From the NCBI RefSeq assembly GCF_000203815.1, contig NW_004457644.1, forward strand, positions 124,001-188,000: DNA of 64,000 nucleotides, in the 5' to 3' direction. Position numbers and translations under genes: made by a program. This DNA comes from Cavenderia fasciculata (taxonomy: Eukaryota; Evosea; Eumycetozoa; Acytosteliales; Cavenderiaceae). Shown one piece after another: positions 15,084 to 23,271 of the stretch (position 1 is its first letter; the number at the start of each line of letters is the position of its first letter). Under the pieces are notes generated by a model. The model was not told the DNA's origin. It made no database searches and worked only from the letters and a program-made list of their open reading frames with translations.

Positions 15084-16921
15084 TTAATTTTGTTGTTGTT
15101 GTTGATGTTGAAATTGTTTAAGATCATTACTAATATGTTTAAGTTTAGATTCTAAAATTTGGACTACATTATCAACGATCATTCTATCGTTGGCAGTTTT
15201 AGTCCATTCTTTGGTGAGGTTGGCAAGACGTGGGTTACGCTTGTTGATACCCTCTACTTCACGGATTGCATTGTTCAAGTCACCTTGCTTGAGGAATTCT
15301 TCGGCACGAGCCAATGTACTGTCGATATCGTCACCTTGGACCATACCCTTCTCAGGGACAATGAGTTTAGAGGCAATGGCCGATAGCGCACGGCCGAGGA
15401 ATGACTCGTCGTCTGGCAACAATGATTCCTTTCTCAACTCGGCCGACATTTCTGCAAAGCTGTCGCGGATCATGTTGATGGATGCAACACCATACTGCGA
15501 TACGCTGGCTGGCAGTGCCTTGACAACAGTGTCGATGAGGTTGTCCGTGTCGGCCATTGCCAACTCTTTCAACTGTTTGACTTGGTTGTGTAGAGGTGTG
15601 TAGGCGTCAAATTCCTTGACGGCACGTTTCAAATCGACCAATGACACGGTGAGTGCGCTGATGAGCTTCTTGTCGGCTTCAATGTCTTGAATACGTTTCT
15701 TTTGACCTTCGAAAATACCTGTTAAATTGTCACGTTGTTTCTTAACAGAGTCATTCAATTGGTCGTATGATTGATCCAATGTTTGCTTGAATGATTGTTC
15801 CATCTCTTCCAACTTGCCAATCGAATCCTTGGTAATCTCTCTCACCTTTTCATCAAATTGTTCATTATACAACTTTTGAATTGCATCTTCAAATTTCTCC
15901 ATATATCCTTTTTCACTTGATTTAATTGATTCTATTTCTTCTTTTAATTTAACCTAAATAGAATAGTAATCGGTAAATATATATTATAATCATTAATCAA
16001 ATTAATAATTTGATTAGAAGACATACATTTTCCAATAATAATTGTTTGATTTGAGTAATATATTGCTTTTCTAAAATAGCAAGTAAATGATCTAAATTAT
16101 CTATTGGAACATCCTTTGTTGGTGAAGAGCTATCCTCTTGTTGTTGATCTTCAATGGAAGAAGATGGAGTGGTGGTAATGGTGGTTGTATTGGTTTGATC
16201 TTGTTCATTTGGTTGAATGGTGATATCTACTTGTTCATTTTCATCATCACCAATAATCTTATCTAGTGTATCATAGATTTTAGTTGTATCTGTATATTCA
16301 TCAGATGGTGTAACTATAGTGGTTGTAATGACTTCAGTAATAATTGGTTCTTCATCATCACCATTTTCTTTCTTATCTTTTTTATCTTCTTGTTCCTTAT
16401 CTTGTTCTTCTTCTTGTTGACTGACAATGACCAATGTTTCAATTTCATCCAATAAATCATCAATGATTGGTTCAACTCTTTTCTGGATGATAGCTTCGAG
16501 TGAAAGATCAGGGATCTCTTTCTTGTCCAATTGTTCGGTGGCGTCGTTGGCTTGTTCCTTGACAACGTCTTTAATTGTCTCTGCGACCACTACTGTCTTT
16601 GGCTCGATCAATTGATTCTCCAATGTTTGTACCAACTCTGAAATATTCTCAATCACATCTCCTTTTGAATGGTGGTGTTCAGGTGTAGTAGTAGTAGTAG
16701 AAACAGCTTGCTTATTACCATTTGAAAATGCAGCAGCGATATGATTGAACTTCTCAACCATCTCTTTGTTGACATTACCAATATGTGAAGAGAACAAGTA
16801 CTCTTCATTGAAACAATACTTGTATCCAACGAAACCAACAGTAAAACCTAACCCTAATGCCAAAAGGTATCCTCTAGCAGTACGACCAAACTCTCCACTA
16901 CCATTACTACCATTACTATTA

Positions 16922-18733: not shown

Positions 18734-18980
18734 TATTTATCAATAGAAGTAATATTTATATATAAATACAGTATATCTATCTATTTAAATAGCTTCTATA
18801 CAAAGGTTGTTTATGATATTTCCTCACAAATAGATGCTCACCTTTTTTTCTTGTTTTTTCATCGTAGTCGAGTCACTGGTGATATTGTGATCTTAATTCT
18901 TTTCAAAGTTTACAACAAACAATTTGGGTTGGGTTGGGATTATGACAAAAAGCAACAAAGTATCTAAAGGGGTTGTTGTC

Positions 18981-19079
18981 GTTTCCTAAGAGAATTGCAC
19001 TCCTATACCTGCAATGACATACTCTTATTGCTTAGAGCATTACGAATATACAGTACATTACTAATTATGTTAAGGAAAC
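18981..19079 (-). ncRNA. Copy A of a repeated small-RNA-like element
   Basis: 99 nt. On the plus strand it begins GTTTCCTAAGAG, continues TTGCACTCCTATACC, and ends TACATTACTAATTATGTTAAGGAAAC. The ends can pair (GTTTCCT with AGGAAAC, 7 bp). The centre (about 45 nt) is unlike the other copies. One base differs from B and C inside the conserved block (agaattg instead of agatttg). No ATCCCATAA element is found at the expected distance upstream on the minus strand, so this copy may be silent or read from elsewhere. Confidence 0.45.
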
Positions 19080-19112
19080 TTACTATACCACTTCTTTAAA
19101 TATCTTCAATGC

Positions 19113-19185
19113 ATTTCCTAAGAGATTTGCACTCCTATACCGGAAGATTTGATCTTCGGGACATTACTAATTATGTTAAGGAAAC
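19113..19185 (-). ncRNA. Copy B of a repeated small-RNA-like element
   Basis: 73 nt, the shortest copy. It carries the same constant blocks as A and C at both ends and a closing stem (TTTCCT with AGGAAA). Its short central insert folds as a hairpin (GAAGAT / ATCTTC around a TTG loop). On the minus strand the RNA would start with GTTTCCTTAACATAA, and an ATCCCATAA element lies 69 nt upstream (19262-19254). The block CCTTAACATAA is reminiscent, from memory, of the CCUUACAGCAA motif that follows the 5' stem in D. discoideum Class I RNAs. Confidence 0.55.
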
Positions 19186-19253
19186 TTTTGTTCATTATCA
19201 AAAACTAGATCAGATCAAGATATTTGGTCGTTGTGGTTCAAGTAGTATTTTTC

Positions 19254-19262
19254 TTATGGGAT
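19254..19262 (-). promoter_or_regulatory. DUSE-like upstream element for small-RNA copy B
   Basis: ATCCCATAA on the minus strand, matching the Dictyostelium upstream sequence element known for snRNA, snoRNA and Class I RNA genes. It is 69 nt from the predicted 5' end of copy B, similar to the roughly 60-nt spacing described for that element. Confidence 0.5.
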
Positions 19263-19302
19263 TTATCATTATTCCCTAATTTGAGATATATATATAAAAT
19301 GT

Positions 19303-19445
19303 GTTTCCTAAGAGATTTGCACTCCTATACCGATCGGGAGTGTTGAGGTTCACGATCCACAGGAAAACTGCAACTAGTTGCGATTACCTAGATCTGTGTA
19401 ACCAATCTGATTCCCCAGGGACATTACTAATTATGTTAAGGAAAC
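19303..19445 (-). ncRNA. Copy C of a repeated small-RNA-like element
   Basis: 143 nt, the longest copy. The outer 27-30 nt on each side are identical to copy B, apart from a G that lengthens the closing stem to 7 bp. The insert of about 85 nt is unrelated to A and B and includes the palindrome CAACTAGTTG. An ATCCCATAA element lies 78 nt upstream on the minus strand. Read on the plus strand it would be followed by a T-run (19450-19463) that could end Pol III transcription, so the strand is not fully settled. Confidence 0.55.
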
Positions 19446-19522: not shown

Positions 19523-19531
19523 TTATGGGAT
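19523..19531 (-). promoter_or_regulatory. DUSE-like upstream element for small-RNA copy C
   Basis: A second exact ATCCCATAA on the minus strand, 78 nt before the predicted 5' end of copy C. Two identical nonamers in the same orientation and similar distance from two of three repeated elements are unlikely to be chance. Confidence 0.5.
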
Positions 19532-19752: not shown

Positions 19753-20823
19753 TTATTGTTTAGCATTGCTTTGACTTTTCATTCTTGGTAATAAGGATCT
19801 TCTTTCTTGATCGGAAGATCTAGAGTGGAAGAGTTCTTTGGTTCGTTTAAGACGAGGTTGATTTCTAATAACTGATATGACATTGAGTTGTGTAAGAATG
19901 TTTTGGGCGGCCTTCCATTTGCTCTCTGGACGCAAAAGTGGAGTACTCTCTATATCAATGTCGATGGGGACGTCGTTTTGATGGATGGGTTTGACCGATT
20001 GTTGCACAGGTACAGAATCCTTGACGGGTAGACACCGCAAACAAAAGCCCCACACCAAGCCTCCCGTACCAATAATCACGCAAAACAACCATTGATAGAT
20101 ATCCAATGGACGTGTACCAAAGAATTCTCCACCAACTTCAACCAATAATATTTGAATACCAATCGTTCCAATGAAAATACCAACAAATAAATAACTTTTG
20201 TGAATATTTCTAAATACATTAAAGTCTAAAATAAAAATAAATAAAAAAAAGTAAGATTAGTAAAAGAGTTCTATATATATTATATATAAATATTTTGATA
20301 ATAATTTTTTTTTTTACCATTATTTAAAACACGACAATTAATTTCATTAAAGAATTGACAAAATACAAAGGTATTAAAGATGATGGTGTGATAGACCATT
20401 TTGTCATTGGGAGACCATTGACCTTGAGGTGGTAGATCAAAGAGGGTGGTGAGAGTGGCAGCACCATACATAATGGCAAAGAGGAATGACAATTGATAGA
20501 TGGACTGTCCAATGATATTTCTCCACATGCGTCGAGTGATGAGCTTGTCAAATCGACCATATGGTAAACGATCAAACAGTGATTCTGTAGGTGGTTCAGT
20601 TGCCAATGCCAACGCTCCCAATGTATCCATAATCAGATTAACCCACAACATTTGAATTGGTCTAAGCGGACTCTCTCCACTGGTACATGCACCTGCAAAT
20701 GCAATCACTACTGCTACTATATTTACAGTTAATTGGAATTGAATAAATTTACGAATTGAATCATATACCTAAAAAAAAATAAAAATAAAAAGAAATATAA
20801 ATATATAATTATAATTTTGTTTG

Positions 20824-20854
<31 letters not shown>

Positions 20855-23271
20855 GATTCTTTACATTTCTACCCCATAAAACAGCTTTTGAAATTGAATT
20901 AAAGTTATCATCTAATAAGACAATGTCACTAGCTTCTTTGGCAACTTCAGTACCTGCGATACCCATAGCAAATCCAACATCGGCTTCTTTGAGTTGAGGA
21001 GCATCGTTTACACCGTCACCAGTGACTGCAACCACTTCACCTAGTTGACGGAGTTTGTGGACGAGACGATACTTGTCAGTGGGAGAGCACCGAGCCATGA
21101 CTTGGAGGTGTGGTACGACAATGTCGAGTTGTTCGTCGGTCAATTGTCTAAATTGTGGACCTTCTAGTGCGACACCACCTTCCTTGAGGATACCACACTC
21201 GCGAGCAATGTTTTTGGCCGTGAGGAGATTGTCACCGGTAAGCATCTTGATTTTAATGCCTGCATGTTGGCACTTGAGGACGGCGGCGGGCACCTCGGGA
21301 CGAACGGGGTCTTTGATGCCTACGAGTGCGAGAAAGGTGAAGCCGTCCTTGTAGAGGTCTTCCTCTTTGAACTTGGCAGCGTCTCCCTTGACATCTTTGT
21401 AGGCGAGAATGAGTGTACGCAGTCCGTTGCTAGCATACACTTCAATCTCCTTGGCAATTATCATCTTTTCGTCGCGGGTAAAGTTACGTGACGACCCATC
21501 CTCATCAATCGACGCTGTACACTTTTCCAACATAATTTCACTTGCTCCTTTGGCATGGAAACGCAATCCTCCTCCTCCACTATTATTACCGCTTCCATCC
21601 TTTTTAACGAGGATACCTGACATTTTCTTTTCTGAACTGAATGGGAATGCACGGACTGCACGTGCTTTGTTGAGGTCACGGTATGTTTCATAGTCGACGT
21701 TGAGTTTGATGATAAACTCGAGTAGTGCGCATTCGGTCTTGCTGCCCTTGTGCTCGTTGACTGGTGCACGTACGACAATGTATGCTGTCGAGTTGAGACA
21801 GATCGACTCGGCTAAAAGAGAGACAATATGCTCGCTTGGACTTGCAATGTAACGACCGATGGTCGATCGCTCCACCGACATACGGTTCATTGTCAGTGTG
21901 CCAGTCTTGTCCGAGCAGATTGTTGTCGCTCCACCCATCGTCTCGCAAGCTTCCAAGTGACGCACCAGGTTGTTGTCTCGCATCATCTTGATCATCGAGT
22001 AGGCCAACGAGATGGTGACTGCCAACGGCAATCCCTCGGGCACAGCAAGCACAATAATTGCAATCGCCGTCACCAAGTAGCCCATGATCGTTCCCAACTC
22101 GCTCCAAGCCCACACGCGGTGCTCCGTCTTGAACACAACAATGTACTTTATGATCAGTACCAAAAACGTCAGTATCGCTGCAGCCAGACCAAACTTGCCA
22201 ATCAGCTGTGCAAGATTCTCTAGTTTCTCGGTCAGTGGTGTGTCGCTGCTTGGCGCCGACAGCAAACTCTTGAGTTTTCCCCACTGCGAATGGTCTCCAA
22301 CTGCAGCCACCAGATACGTGCATCTTCCCTCCAACACTTGACATCCAGACAACATAAATGGTTCCTCCTTTTCAGATTTTGATTTTTGATCAGATTCTCC
22401 AGTCATTGAACTTTCATCAACTGCAAAGTCTAAAAATAAATAAATAAATAAATAAATATATTAATATTCAAATTTACAAAGATTACATTTATGTTTGTTA
22501 TTGATTATACATACTAGCACCATTAATAAAGAAACCATCAGCTGGGATAGTATCACCAGCTTCCAATTGAACGACATCACCGACTACGATATCAGTGGTT
22601 GGAACAGAGGTGATACGACCGTCACGCATGACTGATGCATTTCGTTCGTTTCTGATAGAGTTTAGTTTTCTAAACTTTTGTTCCTTGTTGTAGTCATTAC
22701 CAGCGGTGACCATGACGACAATGACTACGGCAAAGAGGATAGCTGTGCCATCGATCCAACCAGTTGATCGATCTTCAACAGTCAAACCGAGTACGATAGA
22801 GATGATGGCAGCAACCATCAGAATGATCAATGTCTTGTCGTGAGCAGCCTCCCAGATAAAAAAGAGCAGTGACTTGGGTGCCACCTCTGCAGTTCTATTC
22901 TCACCATACGAATCGATTCTAGCTTTACTAGTAGCCTCTGCACTCGTCAATCCTTGATCTACATTACTCTTTAACATCTCTGCAACACCTCTTACACCTC
23001 CATATTGGTGTTCCAATCCATCAACATTTTCGTTTGATATCAAATTTGCTAAATCATCTCTTGTAACTCTATTATTACTACTACTACTACCTCTATGAAC
23101 TAATCCATTATTATTATTATTATTATTAATATTATTATTAATACTATTTGATTGATAGTATTCTTGTTGTTGTTGTTGTTGAGGTGACAATGAATTATTA
23201 TTATCGTTGATTAAATTCTTTTTTCCATCATCGTCGTCATCTGATTTATTTTTTTTGTGAAAGAAGTTCAT
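19753..23271 (-). CDS. patA: Plasma-membrane-type (P2B) Ca2+-transporting ATPase, PAT1-like
   Basis: Four exons, 22515-23271, 20865-22429, 20318-20768 and 19753-20225, give 1081 residues. An Asn/Gln-rich N-terminus precedes the cation-ATPase fold: the actuator-domain TGES loop (about 262), PEGLP in M4 (about 384), the phosphorylation site CSDKTGTLT (about 430), MLTGDN, and the hinge TGDGVNDAP (about 735). Ten membrane segments are expected. The cytosolic tail contains KWKAAQNILTQLNVISVIR, resembling the autoinhibitory calmodulin-binding segment of animal PMCAs. The pump exports Ca2+ or loads the contractile vacuole/acidocalcisomes in Dictyostelium. Middle exons are markedly GC-rich. Confidence 0.92.

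Follow-up and report, generated by a model that had tools for sequence, protein, structure and literature searches.

A cluster of candidate tRNA-shaped noncoding RNA genes with constant ends and exchangeable centres in Cavenderia fasciculata

Class I RNAs of dictyostelids and vault RNAs of animals are the described systems closest to the locus presented here. As defined in the excerpts available of PMC7919456, Class I RNAs have an AAG start, a 6-bp stem, a CUGU end, a DUSE about 60 nt upstream, and, next to the 5' stem, an 11-nt motif with the near-invariant positions T3, C6, C9, A10, and A11. They are about 60 nt long, with 42-65 nt in D. discoideum and single RNAs of up to 85 nt in other species (PMC7919456, same excerpts). 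Many D. discoideum ncRNAs have the DUSE, (A/T)CCCA(A/T)AA, at approximately 63 bp upstream (PMC3188802; cf. PMC7919456; both in excerpt). Vault RNAs, according to the accessible part of a review (PMC7058938), have little conserved besides box A and box B; their 5' and 3' ends pair in all species, their promoter combines internal with upstream elements, and homology searches suffer from the strong variation of their centres in length and sequence. Human vault RNAs are 86-99 nt long and the rat one 141 nt (PMC550661, in excerpt). In vault research Dictyostelium is an established organism, and the D. discoideum TEP1 orthologue belongs to a vault proximity proteome (PMC13100048, in excerpt). No Dictyostelium vault RNA was seen named in the accessible part of that paper, no amoeba is among the species with validated vault RNAs in the available part of the review (PMC7058938), and no vault RNA from Amoebozoa was seen reported in the limited, best-ranked literature, itself accessible in part.

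The analysed stretch of C. fasciculata DNA (64,000 nucleotides of contig NW_004457644.1, hereafter the window) contains three units in tandem, read on the minus strand, whose coordinates had been given correctly by the first-pass annotation. The units and their parts are as follows.

19303-19445, minus strand: unit 3, candidate RNA of 143 nt (sequence comparison)
19421-19445, minus strand: constant 5' end of unit 3, with the acceptor 5' strand, U8-A9, and D-arm (alignment and fold)
19332-19420, minus strand: variable centre of unit 3, 89 nt, with a long predicted hairpin (fold)
19303-19331, minus strand: constant 3' end of unit 3, with the T-arm and acceptor 3' strand (alignment, fold, and pattern search)
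19113-19185, minus strand: unit 2, candidate RNA of 73 nt (ARAGORN tRNA-Leu(CAA) at 19111-19185; Rfam tRNA at 19112-19185)
19161-19185, minus strand: constant 5' end of unit 2 (alignment)
19142-19160, minus strand: variable centre of unit 2, 19 nt, an anticodon-arm-like hairpin with the 7-nt loop AUCAAAU (ARAGORN and Rfam drawings)
19113-19141, minus strand: constant 3' end of unit 2 (alignment and pattern search)
18981-19079, minus strand: unit 1, candidate RNA of 99 nt, 33 nt downstream of unit 2 and lacking its own DUSE
19055-19079, minus strand: constant 5' end of unit 1 (alignment)
19010-19054, minus strand: variable centre of unit 1, 45 nt (alignment)
18981-19009, minus strand: constant 3' end of unit 1, with one T-loop change (alignment and pattern search)

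The units share the minus-strand start GTTTCCTTAACATAATTAGTAATGT and the end GGTATAGGAGTGCAA(A/T)TCTCTTAGGAAA(C/T). About 28 nt had been estimated as common to either side; the constant 5' end measures 25 nt and the constant 3' end 29 nt, and all three units are identical at 52 of these 54 positions. The two exceptions are a T-loop base that is changed in unit 1 and, in unit 2, the final base, which turns a G-C pair into G-U and is the only stem position that varies among the three. The complementary termini GTTTCCT and AGGAAAC, already recognized as able to close a stem, are present (AGGAAAT in unit 2), and a 7-bp terminal stem is possible in all three units, with G-U as the end pair in unit 2. 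The measured centres of 19, 45, and 89 nt are close to the earlier rough figures of 15, 45, and 85 nt, and they differ as had been claimed. Neither centres compared with centres nor flanks (31-100 nt each) compared with flanks showed similarity beyond shuffles in any of nine local alignments; in every case 12% or more of the 500 shuffles reached the score. What aligned between the flanks upstream of units 2 and 3 was a ATCCCATAA common to both. The ends are probably under constraint, because their positions are nearly all identical while the centres and flanks cannot be aligned. A less likely explanation is that gene conversion acted on the ends alone.

Further copies were sought in the genome of C. 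fasciculata itself (31.0 Mb, 21 contigs). Allowing up to three mismatches, the pattern searches with the 5' end and with the 3' end gave three matches each, all at the array, and the reversed-pattern control gave none; the array is not a repeat that arose by chance. A pattern of the loops only, with stems left free, returned units 1 and 2, unit 3 lying outside its gap range (control 0), and BLAST with unit 2 had the array locus as its sole match. No further homologue of the units was found outside this locus by the pattern and BLAST searches of the genome. The many matches with compensatory changes that the first-pass annotation had anticipated did not appear in the pattern searches, which gave three copies with one varying stem position; nor were the copies parts of a longer coding transposon, the finding it had named as contrary to its reading. 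Several origins were rejected. A transposon or SINE was rejected on finding only three copies genome-wide, with flanks that by eye lack target-site duplications. A viral origin was rejected since viral contigs contain no exact match to the 24 nt that open the 5' end. Captured centres were rejected because, at E up to 10, neither the centre of unit 1 nor that of unit 3 matched anywhere else in the genome. Other Rfam RNA families were also set aside, since only chance-level matches were obtained besides tRNA.

The constant ends have the geometry of a tRNA. ARAGORN called one tRNA in the window, namely unit 2 plus two bases, and identified it as tRNA-Leu(CAA), with U33 and A37 in the loop. No tRNA was called in 30 shuffled 64-kb windows or in any of 20,000 dinucleotide shuffles of unit 2. 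In an 83-base scan with permissive filters, unit 2 also matched the Rfam tRNA model with 31.6 bits (gathering 29), covering the whole model, with an E of 1.5e-5 for this small search; the match was missed by the gathering-threshold scan of the window and by a 751-base scan. Units 1 and 3 had no Rfam tRNA match, as long inserts would cause. On our own numbering, based on the ARAGORN and Rfam drawings, unit 2 has a 7-bp acceptor stem, U8-A9, a 4-bp D-stem, and an 8-nt D-loop (A14, A15, G19, A21), followed by U48, a 5-bp T-stem, and a 7-nt T-loop (T54, C56, A57, A58, T60) that abuts the acceptor. Among the elbow invariants, G19, T54, C56, and A58 are kept, and A18 and G55 replace G18 and T55, two bases that touch each other in tRNA.

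Exchange of ends and centres located this signal. With a tRNA-Thr anticodon arm from the same genome between the real ends, ARAGORN called a tRNA for all three units. Shuffled ends gave no call in 20,000 trials with the tRNA-Thr arm and none in 20,000 with the centre of unit 2, and the real ends with a shuffled unit 2 centre were called in 85 of 5,000. ARAGORN also requires a mid-sequence hairpin, which unit 2 has. Therefore, the tRNA signal sits in the constant ends and is common to all three units. This frame, brought out by ARAGORN, Rfam, and the shuffle controls, had escaped the first-pass annotation.

The call might be taken at face value, with unit 2 a functional tRNA-Leu(CAA) and units 1 and 3 its intron-bearing copies, and the identity assigned by ARAGORN and the loop with U33 and A37 agree with this. 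However, eukaryotic tRNA-Leu has a long variable arm, and unit 2 has neither such an arm nor G18. Moreover, when both strands were searched with anticodon-loop introns of up to 300 nt, ARAGORN called unit 2 only. A decoding role of this kind is highly improbable. An ordinary tRNA-Leu(CAA) gene was not located by the own-genome pattern, which gave 3 places against 2 in the control.

Promoter-like and terminator-like elements accompany the units on the minus strand.

19523-19530, minus strand: DUSE TCCCATAA, 75 nt before the AAG of unit 3
19254-19261, minus strand: DUSE TCCCATAA, 66 nt before the AAG of unit 2
19296-19299, minus strand: TTTT, a possible, weak Pol III stop 4 nt after unit 3 (4% of random positions are as close)
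18947-18951, minus strand: TTTTT, 30 nt past unit 1, a possible, weak Pol III stop for a joint transcript of units 2 and 1

Unit 1 has no DUSE of its own, and the 33 nt between units 2 and 1 contain no T-run on the minus strand. By chance, about 0.0034 DUSE sites are expected per 36-nt slot, a slot chosen after the sites were seen and an expectation based on the 12 sites of the window, the two of the units among them. A T5 lies within 28 nt of 8% of random positions. The spacing of 66 and 75 nt between DUSE and AAG exceeds the 57-61 nt seen in 12 of the 13 Class I genes described below. If transcription starts approximately 60 nt past the DUSE, as in Class I, the leaders would be about 6 nt in unit 2 and about 15 nt in unit 3, and by analogy these lengths would fit a trimmed precursor.

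The DUSEs also bear on the idea that the units are relics, old tandem tRNA copies whose middles were destroyed by insertions and which have no present function. A tRNA frame that has lost G18 and T55 is in keeping with this idea, as is the anticodon-like arm with a CAA loop retained by unit 2. However, under neutral decay the ends would not have stayed identical at 52 of 54 positions while centres and flanks lost their similarity. In addition, CCCAYAA was absent within 110 nt upstream of all 30 tRNA genes checked, of the 63 listed in the genome, whereas a DUSE stands before two of the copies. Relics are thus an unlikely explanation of the array.

The array occupies a gap of about 1 kb between two protein genes, both apparently on the minus strand. 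One neighbour is a P-type Ca2+-ATPase gene (minus strand, Pfam matches at 20280-22460), whose coding part, with its last exon inferred, probably ends near 19753. The other is an ORF on the minus strand without a Pfam match, with its start near 18736. Elsewhere in the window, part of a mitofilin (MICOS) gene lies at 15084-15953 on the minus strand.

Predicted folds were compared with shuffled controls. When constrained to the cloverleaf, the three units fold at 0.4-1.1 kcal/mol above their minimum (22 C), and the cloverleaf is not favoured by the real over the shuffled centres (fractions 0.35, 0.65, and 0.54). It is predicted to form readily in unit 2. Predicted probabilities are low for the T-arm of units 1 and 3, at 0.2-0.4, and for the D-arm of unit 1, at 0.12-0.15. 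The minimum energy was reached by 2% of shuffled centres for unit 2, 15% for unit 1, and 39% for unit 3. The folding z-scores of units 1, 2, and 3 are -1.94, -2.43, and -1.42 on the minus strand and -1.57, -1.80, and -2.63 on the plus strand, and leave the strand undecided. RNAs of the plus strand, or structured parts of some longer transcript, would accord with the lower plus-strand z-score of unit 3 and with the T-runs that follow units 2 and 3 on the plus strand, including a T10 nine nt after unit 3. On the other hand, the plus strand has no DUSE upstream of the units and gave no tRNA or Rfam match. Because both neighbouring genes appear to lie on the minus strand, a longer transcript through the array is possible on that strand, which both would suit rather than a plus-strand one. 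We regard the alternative of plus-strand RNAs or of structured parts of a longer transcript as very unlikely.

The first-pass annotation had seen a likeness to Class I RNAs and had suggested a divergent branch of them, with longer constant ends, or a new family. Class I genes were collected from the same genome. The discoideum-type motif was dropped, with 4 matches against 9 in the control; a looser pattern that included the DUSE gave 34 matches against 20 in the control, and 30 of the 34 came as loci. The set used consists of 13 genes with a CTGT end, two uncertain ones (L048 and L051) having been dropped, and the recovered genes read AAG...CCTTCCTACAA...AGGGATCTGT. In 12 of them the DUSE is found 57-61 nt before the AAG and in the other at 16 nt only; its presence is by construction, because the search pattern included it, but the tight spacing is not. 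All 13 have at least four T within 9-24 nt after their end. A covariance model built on the 13 genes scored them at 59.9-68.1 bits, as training members and not as held-out controls. At E up to 10, the model gave 1.2 bits at the 5' end of unit 1 and no match at the 5' ends of units 2 and 3, and its best match around the array, 7.6 bits, was on the plus strand inside the centre of unit 3.

The AAG start is present in all three units, and their motif CCTTAACATAA, set against CCTTCCTACAA of Class I, has T3, A10, and A11 and lacks C6 and C9 in each. The CUGU end is found in none of the three, which have CGAC, TGCA, and CACA instead. It had been stated that the units are longer than Class I RNAs; this applies to units 1 and 3, at 99 and 143 nt, but not to unit 2, which at 73 nt is inside the wider range, up to 85 nt, given in the excerpts of PMC7919456. 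The likeness thus holds for the partial motif, the AAG, the terminal stem, the DUSE of two units, and the intergenic cluster, and fails for C6, C9, the CUGU end, and the covariance score; a conserved T-arm-like 3' end is likewise not described for Class I in the available part of PMC7919456. Because C6, C9, and the CUGU end are missing and the model score is low, the units were not filed under Class I, and their membership of a divergent branch, which is not supported, appears decidedly unlikely. The units may nevertheless use the same promoter machinery.

Among the 34 pattern matches, five divergent head-to-head pairs of Class I candidates were also observed, with paired DUSEs approximately 65-100 nt apart.

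C2:372798-373051: divergent Class I pair 1 (locus L046)
C7:1517706-1517947: divergent Class I pair 2 (locus L057)
C7:1658659-1658925: divergent Class I pair 3 (locus L059)
C14:1681092-1681324: divergent Class I pair 4 (locus L068)
C18:1261962-1262221: divergent Class I pair 5

A Class I-like sequence at L044:1314-1378, on the minus strand, scored 63.1 bits and is possibly silent, because it has no DUSE at the usual distance.

Our preferred reading, to which we give about an even chance, is that the array is a cluster of genes for tRNA-shaped noncoding RNAs, driven by DUSEs and with centres that can be exchanged. The earlier proposal of a minus-strand RNA-gene array with constant ends and a variable centre is thereby retained as a candidate. 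Transcription of the units, the polymerase, their processing, and their function are what we infer, as follows. Three paralogous noncoding RNA genes would be expressed from the minus strand of the gap between the two protein genes. The constant ends of each RNA would fold into a tRNA-like frame of acceptor stem, D-arm, and T-arm elbow, with the anticodon arm replaced by a gene-specific domain. Transcription would probably be by Pol III, from a composite promoter that combines the upstream DUSE with internal boxes of the tRNA type in the D-arm and the T-arm. Unit 3 would be transcribed on its own; units 2 and 1 would share a transcription unit and be separated by tRNA end-processing enzymes. 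The frame might supply the promoter, stability, and a common binding partner, and the exchangeable centre might give each RNA its own specificity. If expressed, the units would be a small-RNA family that joins an upstream element of the snRNA/Class I type to a tRNA frame with the anticodon arm swapped. No description of such a family in dictyostelids was found in the best-ranked literature.

The arrangement of a frame with a variable centre resembles the plan of the vault RNAs of animals. The array has paired ends, conserved ends around a variable centre, and clustered paralogs, which is a vault-type anatomy. At the tRNA positions of the units, box A is matched at 10 of 12 positions and box B (GTGCAANTC) at 8 of 9; such box A-like and box B-like strings alone occur in 19% and 10% of random stretches, respectively. 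The centre of unit 2 (19142-19160) also holds GATCAAATC, which agrees fully with the short box B consensus, in addition to the match in the T-loop. The Rfam vault model (RF00006) rests on animal sequences, and no match to it was obtained in the units at E up to 10. The genome codes for major vault protein, with vault-repeat ORFs of 827, 843, and 373 aa, and for a TEP1-like protein, in an ORF of 2198 aa with TROVE and WD40 matches, one of them to a TEP1 propeller model. Two major-vault-protein ORFs are divergent and near each other (G000:C21:3090399-3095055), and the third, shorter vault-repeat ORF is at C10:211900-212688. By analogy, the units might be dictyostelid vault RNAs, i.e., TEP1-bound Pol III RNAs of the vault particle, a specific identity that we consider unlikely. 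If so, such RNAs would have gone unrecognized because only their ends are conserved and the centre varies. A concrete candidate makes the question of a Dictyostelium vault RNA testable.

The candidate tRNA-shaped RNA genes can thus be set beside four known systems. With vault RNAs they share tandem paralogs, pairing ends, internal elements of the box A/B type, and a centre variable in length and sequence. Similar lengths (units 73-143 nt; human 86-99 and rat 141 nt in the excerpt of PMC550661) are also shared, and so may be the composite upstream-plus-internal Pol III promoter described in the accessible part of PMC7058938. They differ in the missing Rfam match, in a box B with TGC where TTC is usual, and in having a DUSE as the upstream element. 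Class I RNAs have in common with them the DUSE (two of three units), AAG start, terminal stem, variable middle, and intergenic clusters. In contrast to Class I, the units lack C6 and C9 of the 11-nt motif as well as the CUGU end, two of them (units 1 and 3) exceed the lengths given, and an extra T-arm-like 3' end is present that the available excerpts do not describe for Class I (PMC7919456). The acceptor, D-arm, and T-arm geometry is that of tRNA, together with U8, A14, R15, G19, A21, Y48, G53, T54, C56, R57, A58, Y60, and C61, whereas G18 and T55 are absent, the anticodon arm is replaced, and a DUSE lies upstream. A tRNA frame serves a non-decoding purpose in mascRNA and in the tRNA-like domain of tmRNA. 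The use of the frame beyond decoding would be common to these RNAs and the array units, but gene organisation and promoter differ, and the array consists of three paralogs with exchanged arms.
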